DNA from: Paludibacteraceae bacterium
GTDB lineage: Bacteria; Bacteroidota; Bacteroidia; Bacteroidales; Paludibacteraceae
Assembly: GCA_017558065.1 (NCBI GenBank)
Contig: JAFYWK010000058.1
Span: 1 to 51,981, forward strand
DNA length: 51,981 bases
Direction of reading: 5' to 3'
Made by a program: the position numbers and the translations under genes. The stretch's first letter is position 1. Every line of letters begins with the position of its first letter. The notes below the pieces were generated by a model. The model did no database searches. It was not told where the DNA came from and worked only from the letters and a program-made list of their open reading frames with translations. Below, piece by piece: positions 2,956 through 46,277 of the stretch.

Positions 2956-4110
2956 CTATTTCACAGGGTTATCCTGCAATCCCCAACCCGTGATAGTAGC
3001 GATGTATGGGATATAAGCGTATGAGAATTTCTGATGACCAAGATAATTAGGGTGCATACTCGCACCAAGATCCTCATCGGTAGATAAGTGCAACGATGGG
3101 CAGCAAGCCATAAAATGCACATCAGGCATAGGGCAGAACTTCACCATATCACGCATGTAATCCAGCAATGTGCTATGCGCCTTAGAGGACACACAAAGCA
3201 CAGGATGATCCTCTCCGTAATAGTCTTTGATATAACGTATCAAGCGGTAATAGCCATCGCGGAATTTCTCATAAGATGGTTGCATAGATACCGAGAAATC
3301 GTTACCACCCAAATAAATACACGTCAGCGCAGGACGAATATCCGACTCAGCAGCATTCCAACGGGTAGCTTGCGCAGAGTCCATATCAAAGGTTTGGAGA
3401 TAGCGATCTGGCATATGATAGCCATCAAACTTGGAGTTGTAGTTGCGCGCAGCACCCATTCCCGAGTGAGCTACAACCACATAATCAGCATCAAAATAAC
3501 GCGAAAGAATCGCACAGAACGAACGAGAAGCATTCTCCGTTTCTGGCGTAAACTTAGCTAAACGACTTGGGTCATCCACGCCATAACCACAATCATAACT
3601 TGCTCCGATAAACTCCAGCTGACGTTGGCGAATAGGTTCTGCTTGATGAAACTCGCCCTTCGCGTCCGTGGAGAAAGCATGGATAGTCATCTTACCCTGT
3701 TCGCCTTCCGTGCGCTTTTGCACCACAACATTATGCACCTTCAGCTTCGAGGATTTCAGATAAGCGGGGTCAATCAATTCAATCACGGTATCAGCGCCCG
3801 ACACTTCTATCACACGGTGTGGATCAGCACTCATAGGTGTATCAATCCACACATTATAGTAGTTATGGCGAGTAGCTGCCATCTCAGGTGTAGCATCCCA
3901 CTTGCTGTCTGAAACACGCATAGTCAATGACTTACCCGTAAAAGCAAGGCGAAAATATACACCCGTCCAATCAAACGACACATCATTTCCCTCCACCAAG
4001 GTGCGTCCCACGTAGGTAACACGTTCATCACTTGCAGGAATAGTCTCTGCCATCAGGCAAAGAGGCGATAAGGCGATAAGGCATAGAGCCAAAAATAGAT
4101 TCTTTTTCAT
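2956..4110 (-). CDS. CE2-like SGNH esterase, paralog 1 (GDS changed to GAS)
   Basis: A secreted acetyl-esterase-like protein, third in transcription order of three tandem paralogs. A signal peptide (about 1-21) is followed by a beta-sandwich N-terminal domain and an SGNH hydrolase domain, the layout of carbohydrate esterase family 2. The nucleophile S171 is present, but the block reads FIGASYDCGYG, where both siblings have FIGDSYTCGYG. The G block (SGMGAARN), the GND block (YLGGNDFS) and the catalytic His H353 in HPNY are kept. No Asp stands three residues before the His, as in CE2 members that work with a Ser-His dyad. Likely role is deacetylation of glycans. The GDS to GAS change may alter activity or specificity; loss of activity cannot be excluded. 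Confidence 0.8.
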   Translation of the reverse strand: MKKNLFLALCLIALSPLCLMAETIPASDERVTYVGRTLVEGNDVSFDWTGVYFRLAFTGKSLTMRVSDSKWDATPEMAATRHNYYNVWIDTPMSADPHRVIEVSGADTVIELIDPAYLKSSKLKVHNVVVQKRTEGEQGKMTIHAFSTDAKGEFHQAEPIRQRQLEFIGASYDCGYGVDDPSRLAKFTPETENASRSFCAILSRYFDADYVVVAHSGMGAARNYNSKFDGYHMPDRYLQTFDMDSAQATRWNAAESDIRPALTCIYLGGNDFSVSMQPSYEKFRDGYYRLIRYIKDYYGEDHPVLCVSSKAHSTLLDYMRDMVKFCPMPDVHFMACCPSLHLSTDEDLGASMHPNYLGHQKFSYAYIPYIATITGWGLQDNPVK

Positions 4111-4118
4111 AAAAAAAT

Positions 4119-4186
4119 GGTGTATAGTGTAAAGGCAAGGATCTGCGGCTCTGCCGCCCAGCCTTTAAACTTTAAACTTTTAACTA
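4119..4186. repeat. Composite hairpin repeat element (intergenic copy)
   Basis: Left word array ends with GTGTAAAGGC (4127-4136). A 26-base centre holds the hairpin GCGGC-TCT-GCCGC (4145-4157). The right array starts with GCCTTTAAAC (4161-4170), nearly the inverse of the left arm, and goes on with AAACTTT words. The design matches the in-frame copies in wecB and in two glycosyltransferase genes. Confidence 0.65.
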
Positions 4187-5296
4187 TCACTTCACAGGCA
4201 TATCTTGCAATCCCCAACCAGTGATGGTCGCGATATAAGGGATGATAGAATATGCCAATTTTTGTTGTCCATTATAATTAGGATGCCAACCTGCTCCCAG
4301 ATCCTCATCGGTGCTGAGGTGTTGAGAAGGGCAATAGCCCAACCATTCCACATTCTTCAAGCCGCAGTTGCGTACCACATCACGCACATAGCGGAACTGA
4401 TATTCATTGGACTTGGATGCCACGCAGAGCACAGGGTGGTCCTCGCCATAGTTATTCTTCACATAACTCAAGAGGCGCATATAACCTTTGCGGAACTTGT
4501 TGTAATCAGGCATCATAGAGGATGAGAAATCATTGGTACCCAAATATATAACCGTAATATCTGGACGGAACTCAGATTGATCAACCGACCAACGCGTAGT
4601 GGAGTCGCGGTCGATAGTATATTGATAAATATCGGTCATGACTTCCCATGGGATATTCGAACCTGCATTGCGGCAGATACCACGCCCCGAGTGCGCAATA
4701 GCCATATAATCAGCATCGAAATAACGAGAAACGATACTTGCATAGGTGCGCGAAGCATTCTCAGTCTCATCGGTAAAAGGGTCTTTTCGACTTGGAGCAT
4801 CTACTCCATAGCCACAGGTATAGCTATCGCCAATAAACTCAATCTGACGCTCCTTGAAAGTTGGTGCTTGCAGGAAACGGCCATCAGTGATGAACTCGTG
4901 CACGGTCGTTTTGCCACAACCAGCTTCAGTGCGTTTCTGAATAACTACCTGATGCTCTTTCACTTTCGACTTTTTCACATCGGCAGGAAGAATCAATTCG
5001 ATAATCGTATCGTTGCCCTTGACCTCTACGATGCGTGTAGGTTCGGCACTCGTAGGAGCATCCAACCATACGGCATAGAAGTCGCGTTTGTTATCAGACA
5101 CACGCATGGATAGCGACTTGCCCGTGAAAGCCACACGAAAATAGCTGGCAGGGAAATCAAAAGTCAAAGCACCATTACTCTCCAACGCACGCCCAACGAA
5201 GGTCACACGCGAATCTGTCGCTGGCACCACCTCTGCCATCAGGCGAAGAGACGACATAGCGATAAGGCATAAAGCCAAGAAAATCATCTTTTTCAT
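4187..5296 (-). CDS. CE2-like SGNH esterase, paralog 2
   Basis: A secreted SGNH esterase, second of the three tandem copies, 369 residues. The signal peptide (about 1-21) nearly copies that of paralog 1. The N-terminal beta domain is about 13 residues shorter than in the siblings. The block I motif is canonical (FIGDSYTCGYG), with SGRG, YLGTNDFS and DLGAGWHPNY following. As in the siblings the position three before the catalytic His is not Asp, consistent with a CE2 Ser-His dyad. All three paralogs end in a shared GWGLQD(N/M)PVK tail, which suggests a conserved structural end. Likely function is removal of acetyl groups from plant or microbial glycans; the substrate is not visible. Confidence 0.82.
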   Translation of the reverse strand: MKKMIFLALCLIAMSSLRLMAEVVPATDSRVTFVGRALESNGALTFDFPASYFRVAFTGKSLSMRVSDNKRDFYAVWLDAPTSAEPTRIVEVKGNDTIIELILPADVKKSKVKEHQVVIQKRTEAGCGKTTVHEFITDGRFLQAPTFKERQIEFIGDSYTCGYGVDAPSRKDPFTDETENASRTYASIVSRYFDADYMAIAHSGRGICRNAGSNIPWEVMTDIYQYTIDRDSTTRWSVDQSEFRPDITVIYLGTNDFSSSMMPDYNKFRKGYMRLLSYVKNNYGEDHPVLCVASKSNEYQFRYVRDVVRNCGLKNVEWLGYCPSQHLSTDEDLGAGWHPNYNGQQKLAYSIIPYIATITGWGLQDMPVK

Positions 5297-19756: not shown

Positions 19757-22165
19757 CTACAACTCCACCACCGTGATTCCTGCGCCTCCTCGATCGGGGT
19801 CGCCGTCATGGAAGGTGATTTCGCCTGATTTCAAGCGGCGCATCGATTTCTGACGTTCTGCCAGGTAGTCCCGAACCACTTGCTTGAGTGCGCCCGTACC
19901 TGTGCCATGAAGAATAGACACCTGCTCGGCATTCACCATCAAAGCGTCGTCCACATAGGCAATCAACGCTTCTAACGCCTCATCGACACGCATGCCGCGG
20001 ATATCCAACTCACGACTAAACGACAATTTGCGGCGTCTTAGTTCATCCGCCACATTGCTAATGCGTCTTTGCTCCTGACTCTTGTTTCCTTGCTCCTGAA
20101 TCAACTTCGCAGGATTCTTGGTCAGCACCTTCAGATCGCTGAGATCGCGGAGGAGCTTTTGCTGCTTGGTGGATTGGGTAGTTGTGCTAGTCTTACTAGT
20201 TGGGCTAGCAGGGCTAGTTTTGCTGGCTTGGCTTTCCACCTTCGTTTTCAGCGTTTCCACTTTCTGCCTTGCAGCTTGCGTGGCATTCTTCTCGGCTTTG
20301 GCCTCTTTAATCTCGCGTATAGTGCGCTCGATGGTAGCATTGCTTTTGCGCAGCAAATTCGCGGCCTCCGCATTGGCTTCCTCCAAAATAGCACGTTTCT
20401 TGGCTTTAATACCCGCCATCTGCTCCTCGTAATGAGCAATCTTCTCCTCCAGGTGTTTCTCCTTTTGGCGAATGTTCTGGCGTTTGTTCTCCCAATAGCG
20501 TTTATCGCGCGCAATATCTTGCAAATGCTTGTCGTAGTCGATATGCTCCTCGCCCACAATATCCGTAGCACGCTGAATAATCGTCTCGGGCAAACCAATC
20601 TGGCGGGCAATCTCCACCGCAAAACTACTACCTGCCTGACCGATAGATAATTGGAAGAGCGGCTTGAGTTGTCCACGATCGTATAGCATGGCACCATTGA
20701 TGATACCCTCGGTGCGCTCTGCCAAGTGCTTGAGGTTGCCGTAGTGCGTCGTGATAACGCCAAAAGCATGTTGCTCGTTGAGTTGCGAGAGCACAGCTTC
20801 GGCAATCGCACCACCAATCGTGGGTTCGGTACCGGTACCAAACTCATCGATGAGCAGCAGCGTGCGAGCATCGGCATAACGCACAAAATGCTTCATATTC
20901 TTAAGGTGTGATGAATACGTCGAGAGGTCATCCTCAATCGACTGTTCGTCGCCTATATCAATCAGCAAATTCTTGAAAAAACCCATCCTACTTGCCTCGC
21001 TCATCGGTACAGGCAAACCGCATTGCAACATGTATTGCAACATCGCGACTGTCTTCAAGCAAACCGACTTTCCACCCGCGTTAGGACCACTAATAACCAG
21101 TATCCTCTCGCCTTTCGCCAGCGGGGTCCCCGAAAAATCTGCTGATTTTTGGGGTGCTCTATCGCCTAATAACCTAATCGTTAACGGCACCACCGTCTTA
21201 CCCTGACGGCGGAAATTAAGTAGCAACACAGGGTGATATGCCTCGCGCCAATCTATCATGGGTTGTTGCGACACTTCGGGCACGATGGCGTGCATATCTA
21301 TGGCAAACAGAGCTTTCGCACGCAGAAAATCCACTTCGCCCAAGTAGTTTTCTGTCTCCATGATCTGTGGCACTTCGGGGCGTAATTGTTCGGTCACCTC
21401 TAATAATATGCGAATACGCTCGCGGCGTTCCTCTCCCTCCAATTCGCGTATGCGATTGTTGGCTTCCACCACCTGTTGTGGTTCGATAAAGACGGTTTTA
21501 CCTGTCGCCGATTCATCGTGCACGATACCGCCAATCTTGCGTTTGTATGCAGGCGGCACAGGCAACACCAACCTACCCTCGCGCATCGTAGGCGCTGCAT
21601 CTTTGTCGAGGATACCTTCGGCTTGCGCTTGGCGTAGGATAGCATGCAGCGCGCGGCTCACAGAACCTTGAGAGGCACTAATCTCCTTACGAATACGCGC
21701 CAGTTCGGGCGAAGCATTGTCGCGCATCTTACCATAGCGGTCAAGGATGCAATCGATACAGTTGACAATTGACAGTTGATAGTTGACAGTTGACAGTTGA
21801 CTCAGCAACGGATATTTCGCCTTATCCAGCGTAGCGAAGAAGCGCTCCAGTTGAGCAGCGTAGTCCAACATCTTCCTCAGCGAAAAGAGTTCCACTTCGT
21901 CCATATACAGCCCCTCAATACGAATACGCGACAGTGCTTCGCGCAGGTCGTATATCTCGCCATGCGGAAAAGCCAACGCAGGGTCACTGAGGAGTGCCAT
22001 CATCTCGCGCACGCGTGCCAGGAGCGCACTCACCGCAGGAAAATGCGTGAGCCACTGCATGGCATCCACACACTCCTTGCCCAATATGGACATGCAGCAC
22101 CCTTTCAAGCCATCACGTATAACCTGAAAATCAATCTTCTGCTCTATATTCTCTGGATAAATCAT
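19757..22165 (-). CDS. mutS2: MutS2 family ATPase with Smr domain
   Basis: MutS2 proteins act in ribosome rescue and recombination control; the Smr domain cuts or binds nucleic acid. Of 802 residues, the middle carries the ATPase with Walker A GPNAGGKS (360-367) and Walker B LLLIDEFGTG, followed by a long coiled coil (about 540-650) and a C-terminal Smr domain (ELDIRGMRVDEAL, then HGTGTGALK). At least four spots are written by word repeats: about 122-136 (TVNYQLSIVN), 331-350 just before Walker A with a strong DNA hairpin, 644-669 (Ser/Thr-rich, CTAGT words) and 687-697 (QEQGNKSQEQ). The reading frame is kept through all of them. It has the largest number of inserts in the window. Confidence 0.93.
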   Translation of the reverse strand: MIYPENIEQKIDFQVIRDGLKGCCMSILGKECVDAMQWLTHFPAVSALLARVREMMALLSDPALAFPHGEIYDLREALSRIRIEGLYMDEVELFSLRKMLDYAAQLERFFATLDKAKYPLLSQLSTVNYQLSIVNCIDCILDRYGKMRDNASPELARIRKEISASQGSVSRALHAILRQAQAEGILDKDAAPTMREGRLVLPVPPAYKRKIGGIVHDESATGKTVFIEPQQVVEANNRIRELEGEERRERIRILLEVTEQLRPEVPQIMETENYLGEVDFLRAKALFAIDMHAIVPEVSQQPMIDWREAYHPVLLLNFRRQGKTVVPLTIRLLGDRAPQKSADFSGTPLAKGERILVISGPNAGGKSVCLKTVAMLQYMLQCGLPVPMSEASRMGFFKNLLIDIGDEQSIEDDLSTYSSHLKNMKHFVRYADARTLLLIDEFGTGTEPTIGGAIAEAVLSQLNEQHAFGVITTHYGNLKHLAERTEGIINGAMLYDRGQLKPLFQLSIGQAGSSFAVEIARQIGLPETIIQRATDIVGEEHIDYDKHLQDIARDKRYWENKRQNIRQKEKHLEEKIAHYEEQMAGIKAKKRAILEEANAEAANLLRKSNATIERTIREIKEAKAEKNATQAARQKVETLKTKVESQASKTSPASPTSKTSTTTQSTKQQKLLRDLSDLKVLTKNPAKLIQEQGNKSQEQRRISNVADELRRRKLSFSRELDIRGMRVDEALEALIAYVDDALMVNAEQVSILHGTGTGALKQVVRDYLAERQKSMRRLKSGEITFHDGDPDRGGAGITVVEL
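21128..21154. repeat. Hairpin inside mutS2
   Basis: CCCC (21128-21131), one bulged G, AAAAATC (21133-21139), a TGCT loop, GATTTTT (21144-21150), GGGG (21151-21154). It is flanked by cgcc-type words on both sides and encodes residues inserted just before the Walker A strand of MutS2. Confidence 0.6.
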
Positions 22166-24096: not shown

Positions 24097-25287
24097 ATGT
24101 TTAATATCCCCGATTTATCCACTCTACTCAGCCAACACCTGCACGATGATGTGCAGCAGTTGGCATTGCAGCGTAATCGGTTTCCGCACTTATCGGATGC
24201 CGATTTCCGTTTCTTCTTGCAGCAGGTAGAGGGCCGGCAACGTACCAGGGACAAACTACCCTTTTTTGCGCAAATAGAGGATTGGTGGTATCCTGTCCGA
24301 TTATCTTGCGAGCAGTGTTCTAGCGAGGCGACTGCGCGCTACAAAGCTGCACTGGTAGCACCTCTGCACCCCAAGATATTGATCGACCTCACCGCGGGCT
24401 ATGGCGTGGATACTTTCTTCATGTCGGAGCATGCCCAAGAGGCACATTATGTGGAGCGTAATGCGGAATTATGCAGTATTGCTCAGCACAATTTCTCTCT
24501 GGCTCGTCCGCATATCCATGTGCACAACACCACCGCAGAAGACTTTCTCGCCTCATCGCCTCATCACCTCATCACCTCATCACCTCATCGCCTCATCTAT
24601 CTCGATCCTGCTCGTCGCAGTCAATCGGGTGGTAAAGTTTTTCGCATCGAAGACTGCGAACCCAACGTGATAGACTTGCTCCCCGCTCTTCGCAAGCACG
24701 CCAGCCACATCATGATTAAATTCAGCCCCATGCTGGACATTACAGCCGCACTCCGTGCATTGGGAAAAGATTGGGATACGCATATCGTGGCGGTGCATAA
24801 CGAAGTGAAAGAAGTGCTGCTCACGACTGGCACAAACACCATCCATGCGGTGAATATCTGTGCTACGCACACCGACCGCTTTGTCTTCATCCATGAGGAT
24901 GAGAAAAACGCACCAATGCAGATTGCTTCTCATATTGAGCAATATATCTACGAACCCAATGCCGCTATCATCAAGGCGGGTGCCTTCCGATTGGTAGGCG
25001 AGCGATATGGACTACAGAAGCTGGATACCAATACCCACCTCTATACCTCCTCCACGCTCCTGCCCGATTTCCCTGGTCGCGTGTGGGAAGTCATTGATGC
25101 CGAACTCAAAGACCCCAAAAAGCAATTAGACGCACAAGCGAAATATAGCATCATCTCGCGCAATCATCCGCTCATGCCCGAACAGATTCGCAAGAAGTAC
25201 AAACTCCACGACGGCGACGACTATTATCTGCTCGCTGCCCGCCATCAGGGCAAACCGATATTAATCAGTGCCAAGCGCCTTAGATGA
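24097..25287 (+). CDS. Class I SAM-dependent methyltransferase with THUMP-like domain
   Basis: A Rossmann methyltransferase of 396 residues, of the Bacteroidota type that carries a C-terminal THUMP-like RNA-binding part. The SAM loop is LIDLTAGYGVDTFFM (about 94-109), and the catalytic segment is YLDPARR. The C-terminal third (IIKAGAFRLVGERYGL ... LHPNTHLY-like ... YSIISRNHPL) fits the THUMP-like domain. Likely target is RNA, but this is by family. Residues 152-167 are encoded by six 8-base units (cgcctcat/cacctcat), giving an 8-residue peptide repeat SSPHHLIT then SSPHRLIY just before the catalytic DPARR. Confidence 0.82.
   Translation: MFNIPDLSTLLSQHLHDDVQQLALQRNRFPHLSDADFRFFLQQVEGRQRTRDKLPFFAQIEDWWYPVRLSCEQCSSEATARYKAALVAPLHPKILIDLTAGYGVDTFFMSEHAQEAHYVERNAELCSIAQHNFSLARPHIHVHNTTAEDFLASSPHHLITSSPHRLIYLDPARRSQSGGKVFRIEDCEPNVIDLLPALRKHASHIMIKFSPMLDITAALRALGKDWDTHIVAVHNEVKEVLLTTGTNTIHAVNICATHTDRFVFIHEDEKNAPMQIASHIEQYIYEPNAAIIKAGAFRLVGERYGLQKLDTNTHLYTSSTLLPDFPGRVWEVIDAELKDPKKQLDAQAKYSIISRNHPLMPEQIRKKYKLHDGDDYYLLAARHQGKPILISAKRLR
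24549..24596 (+). repeat. Six 8-base units inside a methyltransferase gene
   Basis: Exact order: CGCCTCAT twice, CACCTCAT three times, CGCCTCAT once; 48 bases, so the frame is kept. Three units make 8 codons, hence the 8-residue protein repeat. The same words, inverted, occur in wecB at 34039-34067. Confidence 0.9.
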
Positions 25288-25308: not shown

Positions 25309-25400
25309 CCATCTTCAAGCGAAGCGAACTTCCATCTTCAAGCGTAGCGATCTTCCATCTTCAAGCGCAGCGAACTTCCATCTTCAAGCGCAGCGATCTA
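25309..25400 (+). repeat. Four 23-base tandem repeats with GCGnAGC core
   Basis: Units start at 25309, 25332, 25355 and 25378, with consensus ccatcttcaagcg-n-agcga-n-ctt. The core reads GCGAAGC, GCGTAGC, GCGCAGC, GCGCAGC: only the central base changes. It fills the gap after the methyltransferase gene and runs straight into the terminator. Confidence 0.9.
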
Positions 25401-28102: not shown

Positions 28103-28909
28103 ATGCAAATCAAATCAGCAAATGTGCTAATCACAGGTGGAGCATCTGGAATTGGCAAAATCATGGGGCGAATGGCGTTGGAGAAAGGGGCGAAGGCGTT
28201 GATTATCTGGGACGTGAATCAAGAGGCATTAGAAACTACTATGGCTGAACTCTCCTCGCGTGGGCGCGTATATATCTATGAGGTGGACATCACCAACAGC
28301 GAGCTCGTTGCCCAAACCTACCAACAGATCAAGCAAGAAGTGGGTGCCATAGACATCCTCATCAACTGCGCTGGCATCGTGCGCGGCAACAAGACCTTCG
28401 ACCAACAGACCGTGCAGGACATCCGCCTCACCTTCGAGGTGAATACCATTGCACCTATGGTCATTGCGCAGCAAATCCTGCCCGACATGATTGCTCGCAA
28501 CCGCGGTCATATCTGCAATATCGCCTCGGCGGGCGGTATGCTCAGCAATCCCAAGATGTCCGTCTATGGTGCCAGCAAGTGGGCTATGATTGGTTGGAGC
28601 GACTCCGTGCGTATCGAACTCCAGCAGATGAAGTCCAATGTGCGTTTCACCACCATCGCCCCATACTATATCAATACGGGCATGTTCAACGGCGTGCACT
28701 CCAGCATCTTCCCAATCCTCAAACCCGAACCAACGGCCAAGAAGATCCTGCGTGCTATCGAACGCAACCAAATCTTCCGTGGCATACCTTTCGGCTTCCA
28801 TTTCATTCGTTTCTGGCAAGCCATACTGCCTTTCCGTGTCTTTGACTTCGTTTTTGGCACAGTTTTTGGTATCTACCATGCAATGGACAACTTCACAGGC
28901 CGTAAATAA
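28103..28909 (+). CDS. Short-chain dehydrogenase/reductase
   Basis: NAD(P)-dependent oxidoreductase of the classical SDR type, 268 residues. The cofactor motif is GGASGIG, the structural motif NCAG is followed by the catalytic Ser in ASAGG, and the YGASK motif holds the catalytic Tyr and Lys. The C-terminal 50 residues are hydrophobic and aromatic (PFGFHFIRFWQAILPFRVFD), suggesting membrane contact, as in retinol- or long-chain-alcohol dehydrogenases. It shares the TetR operator with the acyl-CoA ligase and precedes an aldehyde dehydrogenase. A fatty alcohol/aldehyde step is a reasonable inference. Confidence 0.86.
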   Translation: MQIKSANVLITGGASGIGKIMGRMALEKGAKALIIWDVNQEALETTMAELSSRGRVYIYEVDITNSELVAQTYQQIKQEVGAIDILINCAGIVRGNKTFDQQTVQDIRLTFEVNTIAPMVIAQQILPDMIARNRGHICNIASAGGMLSNPKMSVYGASKWAMIGWSDSVRIELQQMKSNVRFTTIAPYYINTGMFNGVHSSIFPILKPEPTAKKILRAIERNQIFRGIPFGFHFIRFWQAILPFRVFDFVFGTVFGIYHAMDNFTGRK

Positions 28910-29133
28910 CCACTCTACACCACTCTAAACGTACACGAGCCACAGCGAGTGATCGTTCGAGCGGAGCGAGATAAGAACTCTAAACAACTCTACACAACTC
29001 TAAACAACTCTACACCACTCTAAACGTACACGAGCCACAGCGAGTGATCGTTCGAGCGGAGCGAGATAAGAACTCTACACCACTCTACACAACTCTAAAC
29101 AACTCTAAACTACTCTAAACTACTCTACACCAC
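28910..29133 (+). repeat. 224-base gap made of CTCTAAAC/CTCTACAC words with two identical 62-base copies
   Basis: The gap between SDR and aldehyde dehydrogenase genes holds only repeats. A 62-base block at 28921-28982 is repeated without change at 29016-29077. Each block contains GAGCGGAGCGAG, with the GCGnAGC core, and is embedded in 8- to 9-base words ctctaaac(a), ctctacac(c). No promoter was found in it, so the two genes may be cotranscribed through the repeats. Confidence 0.9.
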
Positions 29134-30540
29134 ATGAACCACTACATTTCCACTACACGAAGCAAACAGCGCGCCTACTTCCGCTCGGGTGCTACCCTGC
29201 CTCTCTGTTTCCGTCGTCAGATGCTTCGCAAGCTCTCTGACGCCATGCACCAATACGAGAAACCCCTCGCCGAAGCCCTGTGGATAGACCTCCACAAGTC
29301 TTACGAGGAGGCATACCTCACCGAACTCAGTATCGTCTATGGCGAAATACGCAATCATCTCCGCCATCTCAGCCAGTGGGCAAAACCAGAGCGCAAGTCT
29401 TCTCCTTTGGCTATCCTGCCCGCCAGCAGTCGTATCATCAAGGAACCTTTGGGCAATACACTCATTATTGCGCCATGGAACTACCCCGTCCAACTGCTGC
29501 TCAATCCACTGGTAGGTGCTATATCCGCTGGCTGTACGGCTATGCTCAAACCTTCGCCCTACGTGCCGAATGTGTCGCGCGTACTCACCGAGATGATTCG
29601 CGCCACCTTCCCCGAGGAGTATATCGCTATCGTAGAAGGCAATCGCCAAGTCAACCAGATGCTCCTCGCAGAGCGATGGGACTTGATTTTCTTCACAGGC
29701 AGCCCTTCGCTGGGAAAAATGGTCATGGAGGCGGCCTCCAAGCACCTCACACCAGTCGTGCTAGAGTTAGGCGGCAAGAGCCCTTGTATCGTAGATAAGA
29801 CTGCCAACCTCAAGGTGGCAGCCAAACGCGTAGCATGGGGCAAGGCCCTCAACGCAGGACAAACCTGCATTGCGCCTGACTACCTGATGGTTCACGAGCA
29901 GGTAAAGGACAAATTCCTCAAACTGCTGGTCAAAGAGTGGAAACACCTGCTCACCAAAGACCCAAAAAAGGCGAAACACTTCGTGCGCATAGTCAGCGAC
30001 AAAGCCTTGGAGCGTCTGATTAGCTACCTGCCCATATCCAATAGCGAAGCGTCCAATAGCCCCAAAGAGGCGTCCAATAGCGAAGCATCCATTTACTACG
30101 GTGGAAAATACGATAAAGCTACACGCTACCTCTCCCCTACCATTCTCACAGACGTTAGTCCAGACGCACCTGTGATGCAAGAGGAGATCTTCGGTCCTAT
30201 CTTCCCTGTGCTGACATTCCAGAAGATAGACGAGGTCATTACATTTGTCACGGATCGCGAGAAGCCGTTGGCACTCTACTATTTCGGTACGAATGGCGAT
30301 TATGTGCTGCGCCATACCTCTTCGGGCGGCGCATGTGTGAATGATGTGATCATGCATATCGTGAACCATAAGGTGCCTTTTGGTGGTGTGGGCCATTCGG
30401 GTATGGGCAGTTACCACGGCAAAGAGAGTTTCTTGGCGTTCTCTCACCGCCGTTCGGTAGTCAGCACACCAACATGGGTGGATATGCCTTTCCGCTATAT
30501 GCCATATAAGTTTTTTGCATGGATTAAGCACTTGGTATGA
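29134..30540 (+). CDS. Aldehyde dehydrogenase, class 3 type
   Basis: NAD(P)-dependent oxidation of aldehydes to acids, 468 residues. The general base E211 lies in LELGGKSP, the catalytic C245 in GQTCIAPD, and the cofactor and hinge motifs (APWNYPVQL, FTGSPSLGK, EEIFGPIFP) are intact. The hydrophobic C-terminal tail (PFRYMPYKFFAWIKHLV) is like that of fatty aldehyde dehydrogenases and may touch the membrane. Between SYLP and YYGGKYD there are about 17 extra residues (SNSEASNSPKEASNSEAS), encoded by tccaatagcgaagc words; relatives usually have only a short G-K turn here. It probably follows the SDR in a pathway alcohol-aldehyde-acid, with the acyl-CoA ligase next. Confidence 0.9.
   Translation: MNHYISTTRSKQRAYFRSGATLPLCFRRQMLRKLSDAMHQYEKPLAEALWIDLHKSYEEAYLTELSIVYGEIRNHLRHLSQWAKPERKSSPLAILPASSRIIKEPLGNTLIIAPWNYPVQLLLNPLVGAISAGCTAMLKPSPYVPNVSRVLTEMIRATFPEEYIAIVEGNRQVNQMLLAERWDLIFFTGSPSLGKMVMEAASKHLTPVVLELGGKSPCIVDKTANLKVAAKRVAWGKALNAGQTCIAPDYLMVHEQVKDKFLKLLVKEWKHLLTKDPKKAKHFVRIVSDKALERLISYLPISNSEASNSPKEASNSEASIYYGGKYDKATRYLSPTILTDVSPDAPVMQEEIFGPIFPVLTFQKIDEVITFVTDREKPLALYYFGTNGDYVLRHTSSGGACVNDVIMHIVNHKVPFGGVGHSGMGSYHGKESFLAFSHRRSVVSTPTWVDMPFRYMPYKFFAWIKHLV
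30037..30090 (+). repeat. In-frame word insert in aldehyde dehydrogenase
   Basis: Words TCCAATAGCGAAGC and TCCAATAGCC recur three times. The core GCGAAGC occurs twice. The stretch is a multiple of three and encodes a Ser/Asn/Glu-rich loop. Confidence 0.75.
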
Positions 30541-33369: not shown

Positions 33370-34626
33370 TTAACCTCTAACCTTTAACCCATACAATATC
33401 TCCACGATGCGTTCGGCGGTGTGACCATCCCATAGTGGTGGGATAGCACCTGGTTGCCATTCGCCGGCGAAGAGGGCATCGAGTGCGGGCTTCACCGCTT
33501 GTGGATTGGTACCAATGAGTCGGTTGGTGCCGATGGTGCATGTCTCTGGGCGTTCGGTATTGTCGCGCAGGGTGATACATGGCACACCCATGACGGTGGT
33601 CTCCTCGGTGATACCACCCGAGTCGGTGACTACCACCTTGGCATGCTCGACGAGGTAGTTGAACTCCAGATAGCCCATAGGCGCTACGATATGCAGGTTG
33701 GGGAACAACTGAGCGAGTTGTTCCTCGTTGCCCCAGAGGTTGTAGAATATCTTAGCAGTGCGAGGGTGAATTGGGAAGATGATGGGCAGTCCGTGCACAT
33801 TGGTGATGATCTGCTCCATGAGTGCTTTGAGGTGCTGCTCCTCATCCACGTTAGCTGGACGGTGCATAGTCATGACTACATAGTTCTTCTCTTGTAGGCA
33901 TAGTTCATCATATACGGCAGGACGGCGGAATCGTGCGCGGTTAGCGAGCAGGGTGTCGATCATCACATTACCCACCCACCATACACGTTGTACATTGCGC
34001 TTAAAAGCGTACTGTTCTTCTTCAAGAACAGGTAGGTTATGAGGCGATGAGGCGATGAGGCGAGAGGCATGTATATCGGCTTCGCCGTTCTCCTCGCCTT
34101 TCACCTCTAACCTCTCACCTCTCACCTCCAACGACGCTCCCTGCAACAGCAGGTTCTTATTCGCCACTTCGCTGGTAGTGAACATATAGTCAGCGAGGGA
34201 GTCGGTGACCATGCGGTTGATTTCCTCGGGCATGCTAAGGTCCCAACTGCGGATACCGGCCTCTACGTGGCAGACGCGGGTATTGAGTTTCTTGGCAACG
34301 ATGGAGCAAGCCATGGTGCTGGTGACATCGCCTACAACGAGAACGAGGTCGGTGGGGTTAGCCATGAGGTCGCGCTCGAAAGCCACCATGATGTTGGCTG
34401 TCTGTTCTGCTTGTGTGCCGCCACCGCACCCGAGGTTCACGTCGGGCATAGGTATGCCGAGTTCTTCGAAGAAGGTGTCGGACATATTCTTGTCGTAGTG
34501 CTGACCCGTATGTACGAGACGATAATGGATATCTTTTCCTTCGTTGTTTGCCTTTTGTATGGCTTTGATAAGTGGAGCAATCTTCATGAAGTTTGGACGT
34601 GCTCCTGCGATAAGGGTGATTAGCAT
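33370..34626 (-). CDS. wecB: UDP-GlcNAc 2-epimerase, non-hydrolysing
   Basis: Interconverts UDP-GlcNAc and UDP-ManNAc for surface glycans. The N-terminus (GARPNFMKIAPLI), the HTGQHYD motif, the HVEAGIRS motif and the late GGITEE segment are all present. It is 418 residues, against about 376 for E. coli WecB; the extra residues lie in the insert at about 166-196 (SLEVRGERLEVKGEENGEAD and on), encoded by a composite hairpin element. It is the last gene of the glycan block and has its own promoter. No wecC is in the window, so ManNAc may be used as such or oxidised by an enzyme encoded elsewhere. Confidence 0.92.
   Translation of the reverse strand: MLITLIAGARPNFMKIAPLIKAIQKANNEGKDIHYRLVHTGQHYDKNMSDTFFEELGIPMPDVNLGCGGGTQAEQTANIMVAFERDLMANPTDLVLVVGDVTSTMACSIVAKKLNTRVCHVEAGIRSWDLSMPEEINRMVTDSLADYMFTTSEVANKNLLLQGASLEVRGERLEVKGEENGEADIHASRLIASSPHNLPVLEEEQYAFKRNVQRVWWVGNVMIDTLLANRARFRRPAVYDELCLQEKNYVVMTMHRPANVDEEQHLKALMEQIITNVHGLPIIFPIHPRTAKIFYNLWGNEEQLAQLFPNLHIVAPMGYLEFNYLVEHAKVVVTDSGGITEETTVMGVPCITLRDNTERPETCTIGTNRLIGTNPQAVKPALDALFAGEWQPGAIPPLWDGHTAERIVEILYGLKVRG
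34039..34130. repeat. Composite hairpin element inside wecB
   Basis: Left array of AGGCGATG words ending AGG (34067), a 29-base centre with hairpin CGGC-TTC-GCCG (34077-34087), right array starting CCTTTCACC (34097) with cctctcac words. The centre is almost the same as the one at 46034-46062. In frame it encodes part of a loop ahead of the VGNVMIDTL strand. Confidence 0.85.
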
Positions 34627-38956: not shown

Positions 38957-40048
38957 CTAAACTAGTAATTGTTTGTAGATACAAAGTAATTGCTCAGCAA
39001 CTTGCACATTGCAAAATCCCATCTCCACGATTTTTTCACGGCCGTTAGTTCTCTCCCCGAAAGCTATTGCTTTTTGCAATGCTTTTGCAATATCTTTCGG
39101 TTCGCGAGTTGGAACGACATAGCATCCCTCTACCCCACTCACTCGCTCTGCCACATCACCCACATCCACACTCACGATTGGACAACCGCATGCCATAGCT
39201 TCTTTGATTACTTGTGGACTACCCTCAGTCTTGCTGGTCATGAGTAGCGCATCGCAATTATACATCAAAGCAGTTACCTGATCTCTTGTATATCCTTTCA
39301 GTTCGATTAGTTCTATTTGGCGATTGGTATCCGAGTCTATTGCCCATTGCCTATTGCCCATTGCCTCATTATAAAAAGCAATCACACTTTTTGCAAGTTC
39401 AGGATCTTTTACTGCGTTGTCAAAAGCGCCAGCAAAGAGCACATGTTTTGCGTCTGCGTTCAGCACCTCCTGGACCCACTGATTAAGAGTCAGTTGCTCT
39501 ACCTGCTGATGTTGCATCTCACTCCATGGTTTGGGAAGGTTGACGCCGCAAGGGAGGAGGGTGTTTTTTGGTGTAGGGTGTAGGGTGTAAGGTGTAGAGG
39601 TCTGTTTATCAGCTCCGCTGTTTTCCGTGCCTTTACACTTTACACTTTCAACTTTACACTCATCATTAGCCCTATCACCTAACGCGATAGCAACATTCCT
39701 CTTCGATACAAAAATGTTGTAGGCCGATAGGCGCATAGCCATCTTGGAGAAGCGCAGGATGGATGGAACATTGATATCGCTACCGTGGTAAGTGGTAACG
39801 ACGGGTACAAGGCGTTGCAGGTTAGCGAGCAGTCCGCTTAGACCATAGTGCGCATGGATGATGTCGGGGTGATGTTGTCGGATGGCGCGTCGCAGCGCAG
39901 GCAGCTCGCGCAGGTAGCCGACAATGCCTTTGCCAGTGATACCATAGCGCAGCACCTCCATGCCACGCGCCTCAAGAGCAGTGATTTGCTCTTCGATGAA
40001 TGGCGCGAAGTGCCCGTTTTTATCGGAAGCTACGATGAGGATTTTCAT
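38957..40048 (-). CDS. Glycosyltransferase family 4
   Basis: A retaining GT-B glycosyltransferase of 363 residues. The acceptor side starts MKILIVASDKNGHFAPFIEEQ, with HAHYGLSG and YHGSDINV in place. The donor side has the E-x7-E motif in KTEGSPQVIKEAMACGCPIVS. Two parts look inserted: residues about 130-160 (VESVKCKGTENSGADKQTS and on), written by a composite hairpin element, and about 228-237 (MGNRQWAIDS), written by ttgcccattgcc words. Both sit at loops: one between the acceptor domain and LPCGVNL, one in the donor domain. Sugar specificity is unknown. Confidence 0.88.
   Translation of the reverse strand: MKILIVASDKNGHFAPFIEEQITALEARGMEVLRYGITGKGIVGYLRELPALRRAIRQHHPDIIHAHYGLSGLLANLQRLVPVVTTYHGSDINVPSILRFSKMAMRLSAYNIFVSKRNVAIALGDRANDECKVESVKCKGTENSGADKQTSTPYTLHPTPKNTLLPCGVNLPKPWSEMQHQQVEQLTLNQWVQEVLNADAKHVLFAGAFDNAVKDPELAKSVIAFYNEAMGNRQWAIDSDTNRQIELIELKGYTRDQVTALMYNCDALLMTSKTEGSPQVIKEAMACGCPIVSVDVGDVAERVSGVEGCYVVPTREPKDIAKALQKAIAFGERTNGREKIVEMGFCNVQVAEQLLCIYKQLLV
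39571..39660. repeat. Composite hairpin element inside the GT4 gene
   Basis: Left array GTGTAGGGTGTAAGG ending GTGTAGAGG (39600), a 29-base centre with hairpin CAGC-TCC-GCTG (39610-39620), right array starting CCTTTACAC (39630). The arms are nearly inverse. The stem differs from the wecB copy at paired positions (G-C to A-T). Confidence 0.85.
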
Positions 40049-44373: not shown

Positions 44374-45198
44374 TCATTTATAATGATTAGCTTGATTACA
44401 TGGTATTATCTCACCAGATAAACATCTGCTTGCAGGAGACATTAAGAAAACTGCCATTTCGGCTAATTCTTCTGGCATGATATAGCGTTTCCCTATTGCG
44501 CCTTTTAAATAAGCATCATCGTATAATTCTGGTTTCTTTACTACATCTGCTGTTACTCCAGGAGCAATAGCATTACAATGTATTCCCTTGCTTGCAAACC
44601 GGCGAGCTACACCTGCTACGATATTACCGATAGCGGCCTTAGTCATACCATATGGCGCATCATCAGGATATAAACCGCGCTCTGATGTTACAAACAAAAT
44701 GCTTGCAGACAGAACCTCATTTTCCTCACAATGACGCAAGAATGCCTGTGTCAAAAAAAATGGACTTTTCACATTCAGCAGGAACTGCTCATCATAACTC
44801 TGCTCCGTCACATTCAAAAAACCATTATCAATATTGCATATACCTGCATTATTGACTAATCCATCTAACCCTCCTAATAGTTCAACTGTTTCTTGTATGA
44901 GATTAGGTAAATCTGCAATATTTGTCAGATCAAATGCAATACATTTACACCCAATGGTTTGTGCAGCATCTCTTAACTTGTGAGTATCACGTCCCACAAT
45001 TACCACTTCTGCACCCTCTGCTACAAATCGTTTAGCAATTTGCAAACCAATGCCTTGACTACCTCCCGTAATAAGGATCTTTCGTCCCTGCAATTGATTA
45101 GAAGGAAATATAGTCGTAACACCAGCATTCACTTTCATAACAGGAATGCCTTTATACAACCATTGCCATAGTCGATATAAATATTGCTTCATACTCAT
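44374..45198 (-). CDS. Short-chain dehydrogenase/reductase in the glycan locus
   Basis: 274 residues of classical SDR type: cofactor motif GGSQGIG (after an N-terminal extension of about 40 residues), NNAG, catalytic Ser in FVTSERG, and YGMTKAA with Tyr and Lys. It may reduce or oxidise a sugar nucleotide or a lipid-linked intermediate. The start ATG at 45198 overlaps the stop of the upstream GT2 (ATGA), which decides among several Met codons. The N-terminal extension (YLYRLWQWLYKGIPV) is aromatic and could touch the membrane. Confidence 0.85.
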   Translation of the reverse strand: MSMKQYLYRLWQWLYKGIPVMKVNAGVTTIFPSNQLQGRKILITGGSQGIGLQIAKRFVAEGAEVVIVGRDTHKLRDAAQTIGCKCIAFDLTNIADLPNLIQETVELLGGLDGLVNNAGICNIDNGFLNVTEQSYDEQFLLNVKSPFFLTQAFLRHCEENEVLSASILFVTSERGLYPDDAPYGMTKAAIGNIVAGVARRFASKGIHCNAIAPGVTADVVKKPELYDDAYLKGAIGKRYIMPEELAEMAVFLMSPASRCLSGEIIPCNQANHYK

Positions 45199-46277
45199 CT
45201 TAATATATGCCATTTTTCTAATTTAAACAATACTCGCTCTACAAAATAAACCAATCCCCACAAATGATGTTTTTTAAGTCGTTTATATTGATCAACAACG
45301 GAATGATAATTATCGTAGTCACGCAATATGCCTACAGGAATCATTGCTTTAAGCAATTGTTTACGCTCGTTATTCAGCAAATCTTTGTTGGATTCTGATA
45401 TACCGGTCATATCAAACAGAGTCATGTCAACATCGACATACTGAACCTTTTCGCCTCCTAATACGATGGACTGCATATAGAATTTCCAATCGGAACATAT
45501 ACGAAGAGTCTCATCATACATCCCGTATTTATCAAAAAGAGAGCGTTTGATATATGCAGGAGAGTGATTTAGGCATCCACGATAGAACATATCCAATGTA
45601 ACATCGTTTCCTCCATTGCAAGCATCATGAAGGATTTTTCCATTAGGAAGCATTTTTTTCATATTTCCGTAGAAAATAGTGGGCATGCTTTGAAAACTAT
45701 GGGCGATAGGCGAGAGGCAAGCAGCTTGTTGATCAGCGGCGACATCTTCCTTGCCTATACACTTTACACTTTCCACTTTACACTGATGCGCATTTATCGC
45801 ATTTGCCATTCGTTCCGTTACATCATCAGCGGCTAACATATCGCCCGAGTTTAGAAATTGGCAATATTCCCCCGTCGCCATGCGGATACCTTTATTCATG
45901 GCGTTGTAAATGCCTTTGTCAGGTTCGGATATCCAACGCACAATGTGCGTTGATGGTATAGAATTGTGTAGATTGGTGTAGATTGATGTAGAAATTTCAG
46001 TTGGTGTAGAGTGTAGAGTGTATAGTGTAGAGGCTGGGGTATCGGCTTCGCCGTTCTCCTCACCTTTAACCTCATTACCCACGCCTTTAGCCTCTAACCT
46101 TTCGCCTTTCGCCTGACTATCCGCATATTGGCGGATAACCTCGACGGAACCATCCGTCGAACCGCCATCTACAATGATATGCTCTATATGCGGATAGGTC
46201 TGCGAAGATACGGAGGCAAGCGTTTTGCGCAAGCCATCAGCGTTGTTGTAGTTTATTGTGATGATAGAAAGGAGCAT
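45195..46277 (-). CDS. Glycosyltransferase family 2 with two repeat-derived inserts
   Basis: A GT-A enzyme of 360 residues: LLSIITINYNNADGLRKTL, VDGGSTDGS, and the block WISEPDKGIYNAMNKGI with the typical FLNSGD motif. In relatives the VDGGSTDGS block and the ISEPD block are joined by a short stretch. Here residues about 54-106 are extra, encoded by a composite hairpin element and its word arrays. A second extra part lies at about 163-193, before PTIFYGNM. Both keep the frame, and the catalytic blocks are intact, so the gene looks functional. Confidence 0.9.
   Translation of the reverse strand: MLLSIITINYNNADGLRKTLASVSSQTYPHIEHIIVDGGSTDGSVEVIRQYADSQAKGERLEAKGVGNEVKGEENGEADTPASTLYTLHSTPTEISTSIYTNLHNSIPSTHIVRWISEPDKGIYNAMNKGIRMATGEYCQFLNSGDMLAADDVTERMANAINAHQCKVESVKCIGKEDVAADQQAACLSPIAHSFQSMPTIFYGNMKKMLPNGKILHDACNGGNDVTLDMFYRGCLNHSPAYIKRSLFDKYGMYDETLRICSDWKFYMQSIVLGGEKVQYVDVDMTLFDMTGISESNKDLLNNERKQLLKAMIPVGILRDYDNYHSVVDQYKRLKKHHLWGLVYFVERVLFKLEKWHILR
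45701..45790. repeat. Composite element B in the GT2 gene
   Basis: Left words ggcgataggcgagagg, a 36-base centre with hairpin CAAG-CAG-CTTG (45718-45728) and a second part that is like the other centres, right words starting CCTATACAC (45754). The encoded peptide (GKEDVAADQQ) is related to GEENGEAD of the other copies. Confidence 0.7.
45962..46116. repeat. Composite element A in the GT2 gene
   Basis: Left words gtgtagattg and gtgtagagtg ending AGG (46033), a 29-base centre with hairpin CGGC-TTC-GCCG (46043-46053), right words starting CCTTTAACC (46063) and ending in cgcctttcgcc. About 155 bases in total. Confidence 0.85.

Follow-up and report, generated by a model that had tools for sequence, protein, structure and literature searches.

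What are the composite hairpin elements that recur along this contig, and how did two of them come to lie within one glycosyltransferase gene? The window, that is the whole contig of 51,981 nt (C70), belongs to a draft genome of 2.44 Mb in 83 contigs (94% complete; G000, hereafter the source genome), and a sequence-only reading had taken the elements at 4119, 34039, 39571, 45701 and 45962 for a single mobile palindromic family that tolerates or selects for in-frame insertion. The layout described there, a word array followed by a hairpin centre and an inverse-like word array, is present at all five loci (Table 1). Under fixed criteria (AGG, a 4-bp/3-nt/4-bp hairpin whose stem has three or more G/C, CCT, and a periodic flank on both sides), the design was found three times in the window and five times in a 452-kb sample of the source genome that includes the window, and was absent from five first-order Markov surrogates, from 51 named loci totalling 934 kb, mostly of other Bacteroidota, and from 904 kb of same-genus stretches. 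Two window elements fall outside these criteria: the stem of 45701, CAAG, has two G/C and CCT is absent within 16 bases, and one flank of 45962 reaches 0.47 where 0.55 is required.

The two extra segments proposed between the motifs of the GT2 glycosyltransferase proved to be real, as matches with most of the closest relatives end near query residue 57 and restart near 111, then end near 164 and restart near 197. The best solved epimerase structure aligns to the source epimerase in two stretches, one on either side of its insert.

Table 1. Elements and host genes of the window, with E values of the R1 covariance model.
Feature	Position	Strand	Context	E value
R1 element 4119	4119..4190	+	Intergenic, not intragenic, with one CE2/GDSL-type gene on each side; core 4128-4170; hairpin GCGGC-TCT-GCCGC; 17 nt upstream of the start of gene 2956-4110(-)	3.7e-9
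23-bp word-plus-hairpin tandem repeat	25309..25396	+	At the junction where the sister G025 has R1 (C8:6534)
Epimerase host gene	33370..34626	-	UDP-N-acetylglucosamine 2-epimerase (PF02350); insert at query residues about 165-213
R1 element 34039	34033..34135	-	In frame within the UDP-GlcNAc 2-epimerase gene; core 34059-34104; arrays 34033-34067 and 34097-34132	4.1e-11
Glycosyltransferase host gene	38957..40048	-	PF13692/PF13439
R1 element 39571	39561..39663	-	In frame within the group-1/4-type glycosyltransferase gene; core 39592-39637, flanked at either end by GTGTAAA-type words	2.9e-11
GT2 host gene	45195..46277	-	GT2 glycosyltransferase (PF00535), 360 aa; two inserts between conserved motifs
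Insert 2 of the GT2 gene (45701)	45701..45790	-	Array-flanked, at query residues about 164-197, with the words GGCGATA and TTTACAC; R1 not recognised in its core	8.3
R1 element 45962, insert 1 of the GT2 gene	45952..46116	-	Query residues about 57-111; core 46025-46070; 10-mer array 45959-45992, surrounded by 7-mer arrays	3.3e-12

The R1 family and its copies

The family, named R1, consists of an imperfect palindrome of about 46 bp, which contains a mini-hairpin with a triloop and has 7-bp words arrayed on both of its sides. In the aligned centres, the core reads about AAAGGC-nnGGAATA-GCGGC-NNN-GCCGC-ATATTACC-nGCCTTT. The words repeated before it (e.g. GGCGAWA, GGTTAAA, GTGTAAA) and after it (e.g. 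TTTAACC, TTTACAC) form a small set used in several combinations across the two sides, and the triloop is variable, with 15 different triplets among the 33 three-base loops of 39 elements (45701 included, one G014 copy left out). The covariance model was built from seven training rows, four from the window and three from elsewhere in the source genome. Four of the five window elements belong to R1 (E 3.3e-12 to 3.7e-9, values that are low by construction as all four are training rows), while the fifth, 45701, is array-flanked but was not recognised, so that the supposed family of five was retained for four.

Far from lacking further copies, as mere local low-complexity sequence would, the source genome contained 16 at E ≤ 0.01 in the covariance model search, as that reading had expected, and two closely related species, G025 and G014, contained 10 and 13, respectively; 32 of these 39 copies lie outside the training set (9 in the source genome, 23 in G025 and G014). 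At the same threshold, no copy was found in G061-G064, sister species G063 included (best 150 first-look candidates per genome), nor in 58 further relatives (34 of the same genus, 24 of other families), a search with stricter filters in which the best 100 candidates per genome were scored and weak copies may be missed. In this search, which covered 61 genomes, the best match outside the three carrier genomes had an E value of 0.042 (best 100 first-look candidates per genome). These searches support R1 being a probably clade-specific family. No Rfam 15 family was matched at gathering score by R1 or the rest of the window (window and six other loci). Among the literature matches listed, under a coverage that leaves out most subscription journals, no title describing R1 was found, and no paper combining Paludibacteraceae with repeats and intergenic regions.

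The stems had been described as varying at both partners yet staying paired, which holds among the five elements; over 35 copies, the stem is mostly invariant, with few compensatory changes (four cells in the inner stem and one in the outer helix). Four copies are missing from the 35-row alignment, two that duplicate other copies and two weak ones of G014; three of its rows were turned to the gene-facing strand, against the better strand of the model. Its covariation score is not above that of shuffles (389 of 500 reach the observed value). Covariation was discarded as proof of an R1 RNA structure, being weak or absent. Pairing of the inner stem is maintained within elements, with 33 of 5000 permutations reaching the observed value, and the outer arms fit their own partner no better than the partners of other copies (4794 of 5000 permutations reach the observed value).

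R1 copies beside genes and the same sites in relatives

Based on a simple greedy ORF call, only three of the 39 R1 copies (34039, 39571 and 45962) lie inside an ORF of 80 aa or longer, all three in the sense direction of the host gene, and two of the non-genic copies lie within longer open frames (216 and 121 codons from stop to stop). Among the 36 non-genic copies, 28 lie no more than 60 nt, on one side, from the start of an ORF of 100 aa or longer, compared to 25.6% of 3000 random non-coding positions; with a looser control, the values were 27 of 35 copies and 7.9% of random positions of any kind. In-frame insertion, which the window alone had suggested to be a habit of the elements, is thus not what most copies do. 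Non-coding arrays of any word were within 50 nt of a start codon in 23 of 51 cases.

The state of the same junctions was compared between species. The ychF DNA tree (YchF named by TIGR00092) has the topology (G063,(own,(G014,G025))), own being the source genome, with support of 96/96 for own+G014+G025 and 96/67 for G014+G025. Both junctions flanking ychF are empty in G063 and hold R1 in the source genome and G025, and both are occupied in G014 by a different composite with GTAGATC words, mini-hairpins and an inverse half. On the 5' side of a 150-aa gene, which we take to be YqeY-like (weak GatE matches only in NCBIfam), the junction is short and without R1 in the source genome and holds R1 in G025 and G014. 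Upstream of a 474-aa gene with weak glycosyltransferase matches, R1 is present in G025 and G014, and the source genome has a different insert, an 11-bp word array, the edges of the site being conserved (as aligned between the source genome and G025; the G014 copy was read separately). No target duplication was evident by eye at either ychF junction or at the 5' junction of the 150-aa gene, where heptad-like flanks blur the ends.

A role as selected 5'-UTR elements, controlling translation or mRNA stability and spread by selection in operons, would picture R1 as an intergenic hairpin with a C/A-rich leader ahead of the start codon. The proximity of non-genic copies to starts agrees with it, as does their orientation, the start lying on one side of the core in 21 copies and on the other in 5 (counted by hand with one ambiguous copy left out; several near-symmetrical copies score almost alike on both strands). 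Some copies are also conserved at the same genes between species, and a role of this kind was proposed for TAACTGA heptamers (PMC4679880). This explanation nevertheless seems unlikely: next to near-identical YchF proteins the element is absent (G063, 97% identity) or unrelated (G014, 100% identity over the match), three copies lie in the middle of genes, the 39 elements have modest fold z-scores with a mean of -1.65, and covariation does not exceed that of shuffles.

Within genes, the picture is similarly varied. The loop of the glycosyltransferase encoded at 38957-40048 contains R1 in the source genome, a 9-bp word array in G014 and an 8-bp word array in G063, and is short in most of the 17 other relatives aligned; in G002, a GGCGAAAG-like word occurs at two nearby places. 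The epimerase loop was compared among the closest relatives, 20 distant epimerases with short or other loops (L049-L068) not being counted. It is filled with the words GAAAGTG (L041 and L160), GGGTTAC (L044 and L101), ATTGCCA (L099) or a GTGTACAG-like word (L100), with a GAGGC-AAA-GCCTC hairpin (L042) or with filler without an evident word (L040 and L043), and is empty in L045-L048, L102-L107, L109 and L111. The loop of L041, from G012, is identical in every letter to that of L160, a yak-rumen MAG, and the two may be one genome. The inserts of the source GT2 protein were present in none of the 29 loci aligned to it, several of which hold other words at the same loops. The GT2 gene of G035 (L070; G035:C6:104722-105645) has the same 38 bp at both loops, with a CGTT-CCG-AACG hairpin (CGTTCCGAACG), and those of L071 and L075 have different words at their two loops.

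Empty sites, which the sequence-only reading had predicted, were therefore found in relatives at the GT2 loops, the epimerase loop and the ychF junctions. Its single mobile family did not survive the comparison, as sister species hold unrelated word arrays at the same sites; the observation that had been named as fatal to it, the same loops with unrelated DNA in relatives, was made in part. By these alignments, R1 is one of several such families, and the wider phenomenon is that permissive sites are filled recurrently, and differently between species.

An artefact of assembly or binning could be suspected because the records with filled epimerase loops L099, L100, L101 and L160 are metagenome-assembled or uncultured genomes. 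It is hardly credible, given that differently filled loops keep an open reading frame in several genomes and that orthologous copies are conserved between species; the match of L041 with L160 was not counted against it, as both may be the same genome.

Further composites and insertions were noted in passing. The GTAGATC composite of G014 (L296 and L360; G014:C9) has varied mini-hairpins, and its two junctions, with one gene (1.1 kb) between them, are largely alike. At L184:4619-4728 (G000:C5), a 9-bp word and the hairpin GCACC-TGC-GGTGC form another composite of this layout, and G014 has a TGTTAGA/TCTAACA composite at that junction instead. The GT2 relative L077 (G009:C45) has a 25-residue insertion after its NAMN motif, a third place.

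Comparison with known repeat systems

R1 was compared with known systems by description. Like the Rickettsia palindromic elements, it is a dispersed palindrome with in-frame copies within unrelated genes (PMC10969869). Those elements measure about 150 bp and lie mainly within ORFs (PMC10969869), whereas R1 has a core of about 46 bp plus arrays and is mainly outside genes, with its three intragenic copies among 39.

The TAACTGA-type heptamer repeats of Beggiatoaceae, Cyanobacteria and Bacteroidetes, described as spreading without a known mechanism and present as two sets in Paludibacter propionicigenes, are likewise tandem heptad words, many of them just upstream of starts and occasionally within ORFs (PMC4679880). 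That study follows one fixed heptamer (PMC4679880), whereas many words of 7-11 bp occur here. R1 does have tandem heptamers some tens of nucleotides before starts, and the arrays of the source genome are not made of the fixed word TAACTGA. Unlike these repeats, R1 has a palindromic core in common, inverse second arrays, and different word families at the sites of sister species. STRR repeats are grouped with heptamer direct repeats.

Resemblance to REPs of the GTAG/CGTC families lies in short palindromes with many copies, mostly intergenic and some intragenic (PMC3733652). REPs are mostly downstream of coding regions (PMC3733652), whereas R1 lies near start codons with word arrays on both sides; no GTAG or CGTC column exists in the 35 aligned R1 copies, whose ends are AAAGGC and GCCTTT. 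For GTAG-type REPs, an association with a Y1 transposase (RAYT) was hypothesised (PMC3733652). The source genome gave no match to this RAYT-type transposase (PF01797), in a search whose control was detected in 5 of 14 genomes, and a RAYT/Y1 transposase was consequently rejected as the disperser of R1.

MITEs are defined by constant terminal inverted repeats and a target-site duplication. The outer arrays of R1 differ between copies, and only its internal core is conserved. The BrickBuilt MITE of Porphyromonas gingivalis, with 19 occurrences in one genome, also combines tandem words with small inverted ends and is intergenic (PMC4596501). It has IS5-like terminal repeats and a 23-bp word, and always lies 49-591 nt from genes (PMC4596501); in R1, the palindrome is internal, the arrays lie outside it and the ends are not constant.

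Against this background, a MITE- or REP-like non-autonomous transposon moved in trans by a transposase, with arrays as secondary expansions of its ends, was weighed for R1. Dispersed copies, restriction to a clade, empty sites in relatives and the precedent of in-frame palindromic elements in Rickettsia (PMC10969869) all fit such an element. The lack of PF01797 in the source genome, outer parts that are variable arrays rather than constant terminal repeats, junctions at which reading by eye gave no evident target duplication, and sites that are occupied by differing word families make it improbable. R1 was filed among the dispersed palindromic repeats as a variant, the word-homology mechanism considered below being a bolder proposal and unproven.

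Word arrays and the spread of R1

Arrays of 6-12-bp words are abundant in the source genome, with 77 in the 452-kb sample (17.0 per 100 kb), of which 33 are in the window. The density was 10.8 per 100 kb in 13 same-genus stretches (0 to 25 within the genus, in small samples). Nine loci from named close relatives had 17.1, seven stretches from other families in the order had 0.7, and a further 51 named loci had 1.9 per 100 kb; the Markov controls for the five samples gave 0, 0, 0, 0 and 1 arrays. By a greedy ORF call, coding sequence covers 91% of the source sample and contains 26 of its 77 arrays. By period, word families of the sample include TACACTT and TTTAACC (7), CGCCTCAT (8), TTAAAACTC (9), AACTCTACAC (10) and GGTAACGATGT (11).

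This abundance would be an argument for local low-complexity slippage alone, in which the five elements look alike since the genome is full of similar heptads. As an account of all five it is very unlikely: the core is common to unlinked loci outside the training set, in the source genome as well as in G025 and G014, and the design is absent from Markov surrogates and other samples. Slippage alone is contradicted for R1 and stays viable for the 45701 element.

Neighbouring arrays share words more often than distant ones. In the source genome, words are shared by 11.5% of 96 pairs under 1.5 kb apart, 7.0% of 115 at 1.5-4 kb, 5.0% of 220 at 4-10 kb, 3.1% of 351 further apart in the same locus and 2.6% of 12,739 at other loci. 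Under 4 kb, the sharing of 0.090 exceeds the permutation mean of 0.029 and the maximum of 300 permutations (0.066), and in the genus set it is 0.135 (permutation mean 0.015, maximum 0.054); direct sharing prevails over inverted sharing under 1.5 kb (9 to 2 in the source genome, 13 to 0 in the genus set). These pairs are not independent of each other, at least one is a coding repeat, and R1 copies or ychF were the reason for retrieving 3 of the 24 source loci and 7 of the 20 genus loci. Pairs of R1 copies themselves occur within 1.5 kb three times in the source genome (0.15 expected, P 4.8e-4), three times in G025 (0.06 expected, P 2.9e-5) and once in G014 (0.12 expected, P 0.11), with one G025 copy (C109) left out and the ychF pair counted in both the source genome and G025.

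The R1 family and the reuse of its sites are direct observations, from which we infer how the family spread. On balance, we favour a reading in which R1, a non-coding palindrome with array flanks and dispersed copies, spread from one permissive site to another by slippage, template switching and copying through word homology. R1 cores would have been copied rather than invented many times. Arrays would grow via replication slippage, and snap-back template switching at the mini-hairpin could write the inverse array. Template switching can create and keep hairpins (PMC8794818), and could in this way account for small stems that are perfect and for a nearby stretch being copied in inverse form; the hairpins described there are mutations in RNA genes, whereas R1 is a dispersed family. 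With portable word homology, a composite might then be copied from array to array by gene conversion or strand annealing, the recipient often being the next junction, and protein inserts would be tolerated by-products that survive only if in frame and stop-free.

Several results bear on this model of word-homology copying. The outer-arm result counts against it, because template switching within elements would predict a match with the own partner, and covariation no higher than in shuffles counts against the proposed mechanism as well; the inner stem, kept within elements, counts for it. In these draft genomes, neither a donor/recipient event nor slippage or a template switch was seen. The one-strand bias of R1 relative to the downstream gene is not required by it. 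Among GT2 genes, the differing words at the two loops of L071 and L075 count against local copying, and the 38 bp shared by both loops of G035 count for it.

A more far-reaching version, transposase-free colonisation of genomes, can be put forward only tentatively: a lineage-wide store of short words would serve as portable homology, and hairpin composites would copy from array to array, often to the next junction, with fast turnover. If so, words would in effect direct the making of new leaders between genes and of new protein loops in frame, and with fast turnover sister species with near-identical proteins would hold different composites at the same junctions and enzyme loops. Should word homology drive the spread, these repeats would disperse without an enzyme of their own and provide a recurrent source of in-frame insertions in polysaccharide-type enzymes. 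The empty, array-only, hairpin-composite and differently filled states amount to a natural experiment on the origin of intergenic DNA and protein segments, and they warn that proteins of this group can hold lineage-specific inserts within conserved enzymes.

Other sources were considered and set aside. Loss of SbcD was rejected as the cause of arrays, its absence not being sufficient, because other families without it have almost no arrays (one array in 140 kb of six other-family genomes without SbcD over the cut-off). SbcD exceeded the curated cut-off in 5 of 37 same-genus genomes (G012, G016, G019, G023 and G024) and in 9 of 24 other-family genomes, with no match over the cut-off in the source genome, G014 and G025; within the genus, array density was associated with SbcD at p = 0.05 among genomes that are related. 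For phage carriage, two exact pattern matches were found in viral contigs, neither array-flanked, and no phage matched. For plasmid carriage, there were five matches in a plasmid collection, three in GT2 genes and two in E. coli records without an annotated feature. A gapless inverted-repeat scan gave 5.3 per 100 kb in the source genome, not distinct from others (3.8, 6.4, 14.8 and 3.9), and a stricter composite scan found only two copies, on C68. A resemblance of TTTAAC/GTTAAA to attC was dropped, the ends facing the wrong way for attC sites. Reverse transcription as the source of R1 was not adopted, the one RVT_1 gene being in an apparent diversity-generating retroelement. That locus (L371:1-3537; G000:C83) encodes an FGE-sulfatase-domain protein, an HRDC protein and a reverse transcriptase, with 144-bp repeats (565-708 and 2282-2425) that are 87% alike, a gene set that we take to be a diversity-generating retroelement.

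Apart from the composites, the window has a heptad array (ACAGTTG; 21758-21803) within the ORF of a MutS2-like protein with MutS-domain-V and Smr domains, and an octad array (CGCCTCAT; 24545-24599) within an ORF having PG_1098 and THUMP-like domains. At 28908-29120, a 95-bp unit with 10-bp words (AACTCTACAC) and hairpin-like stretches is present in about two copies, directly upstream of the ATG at 29134.
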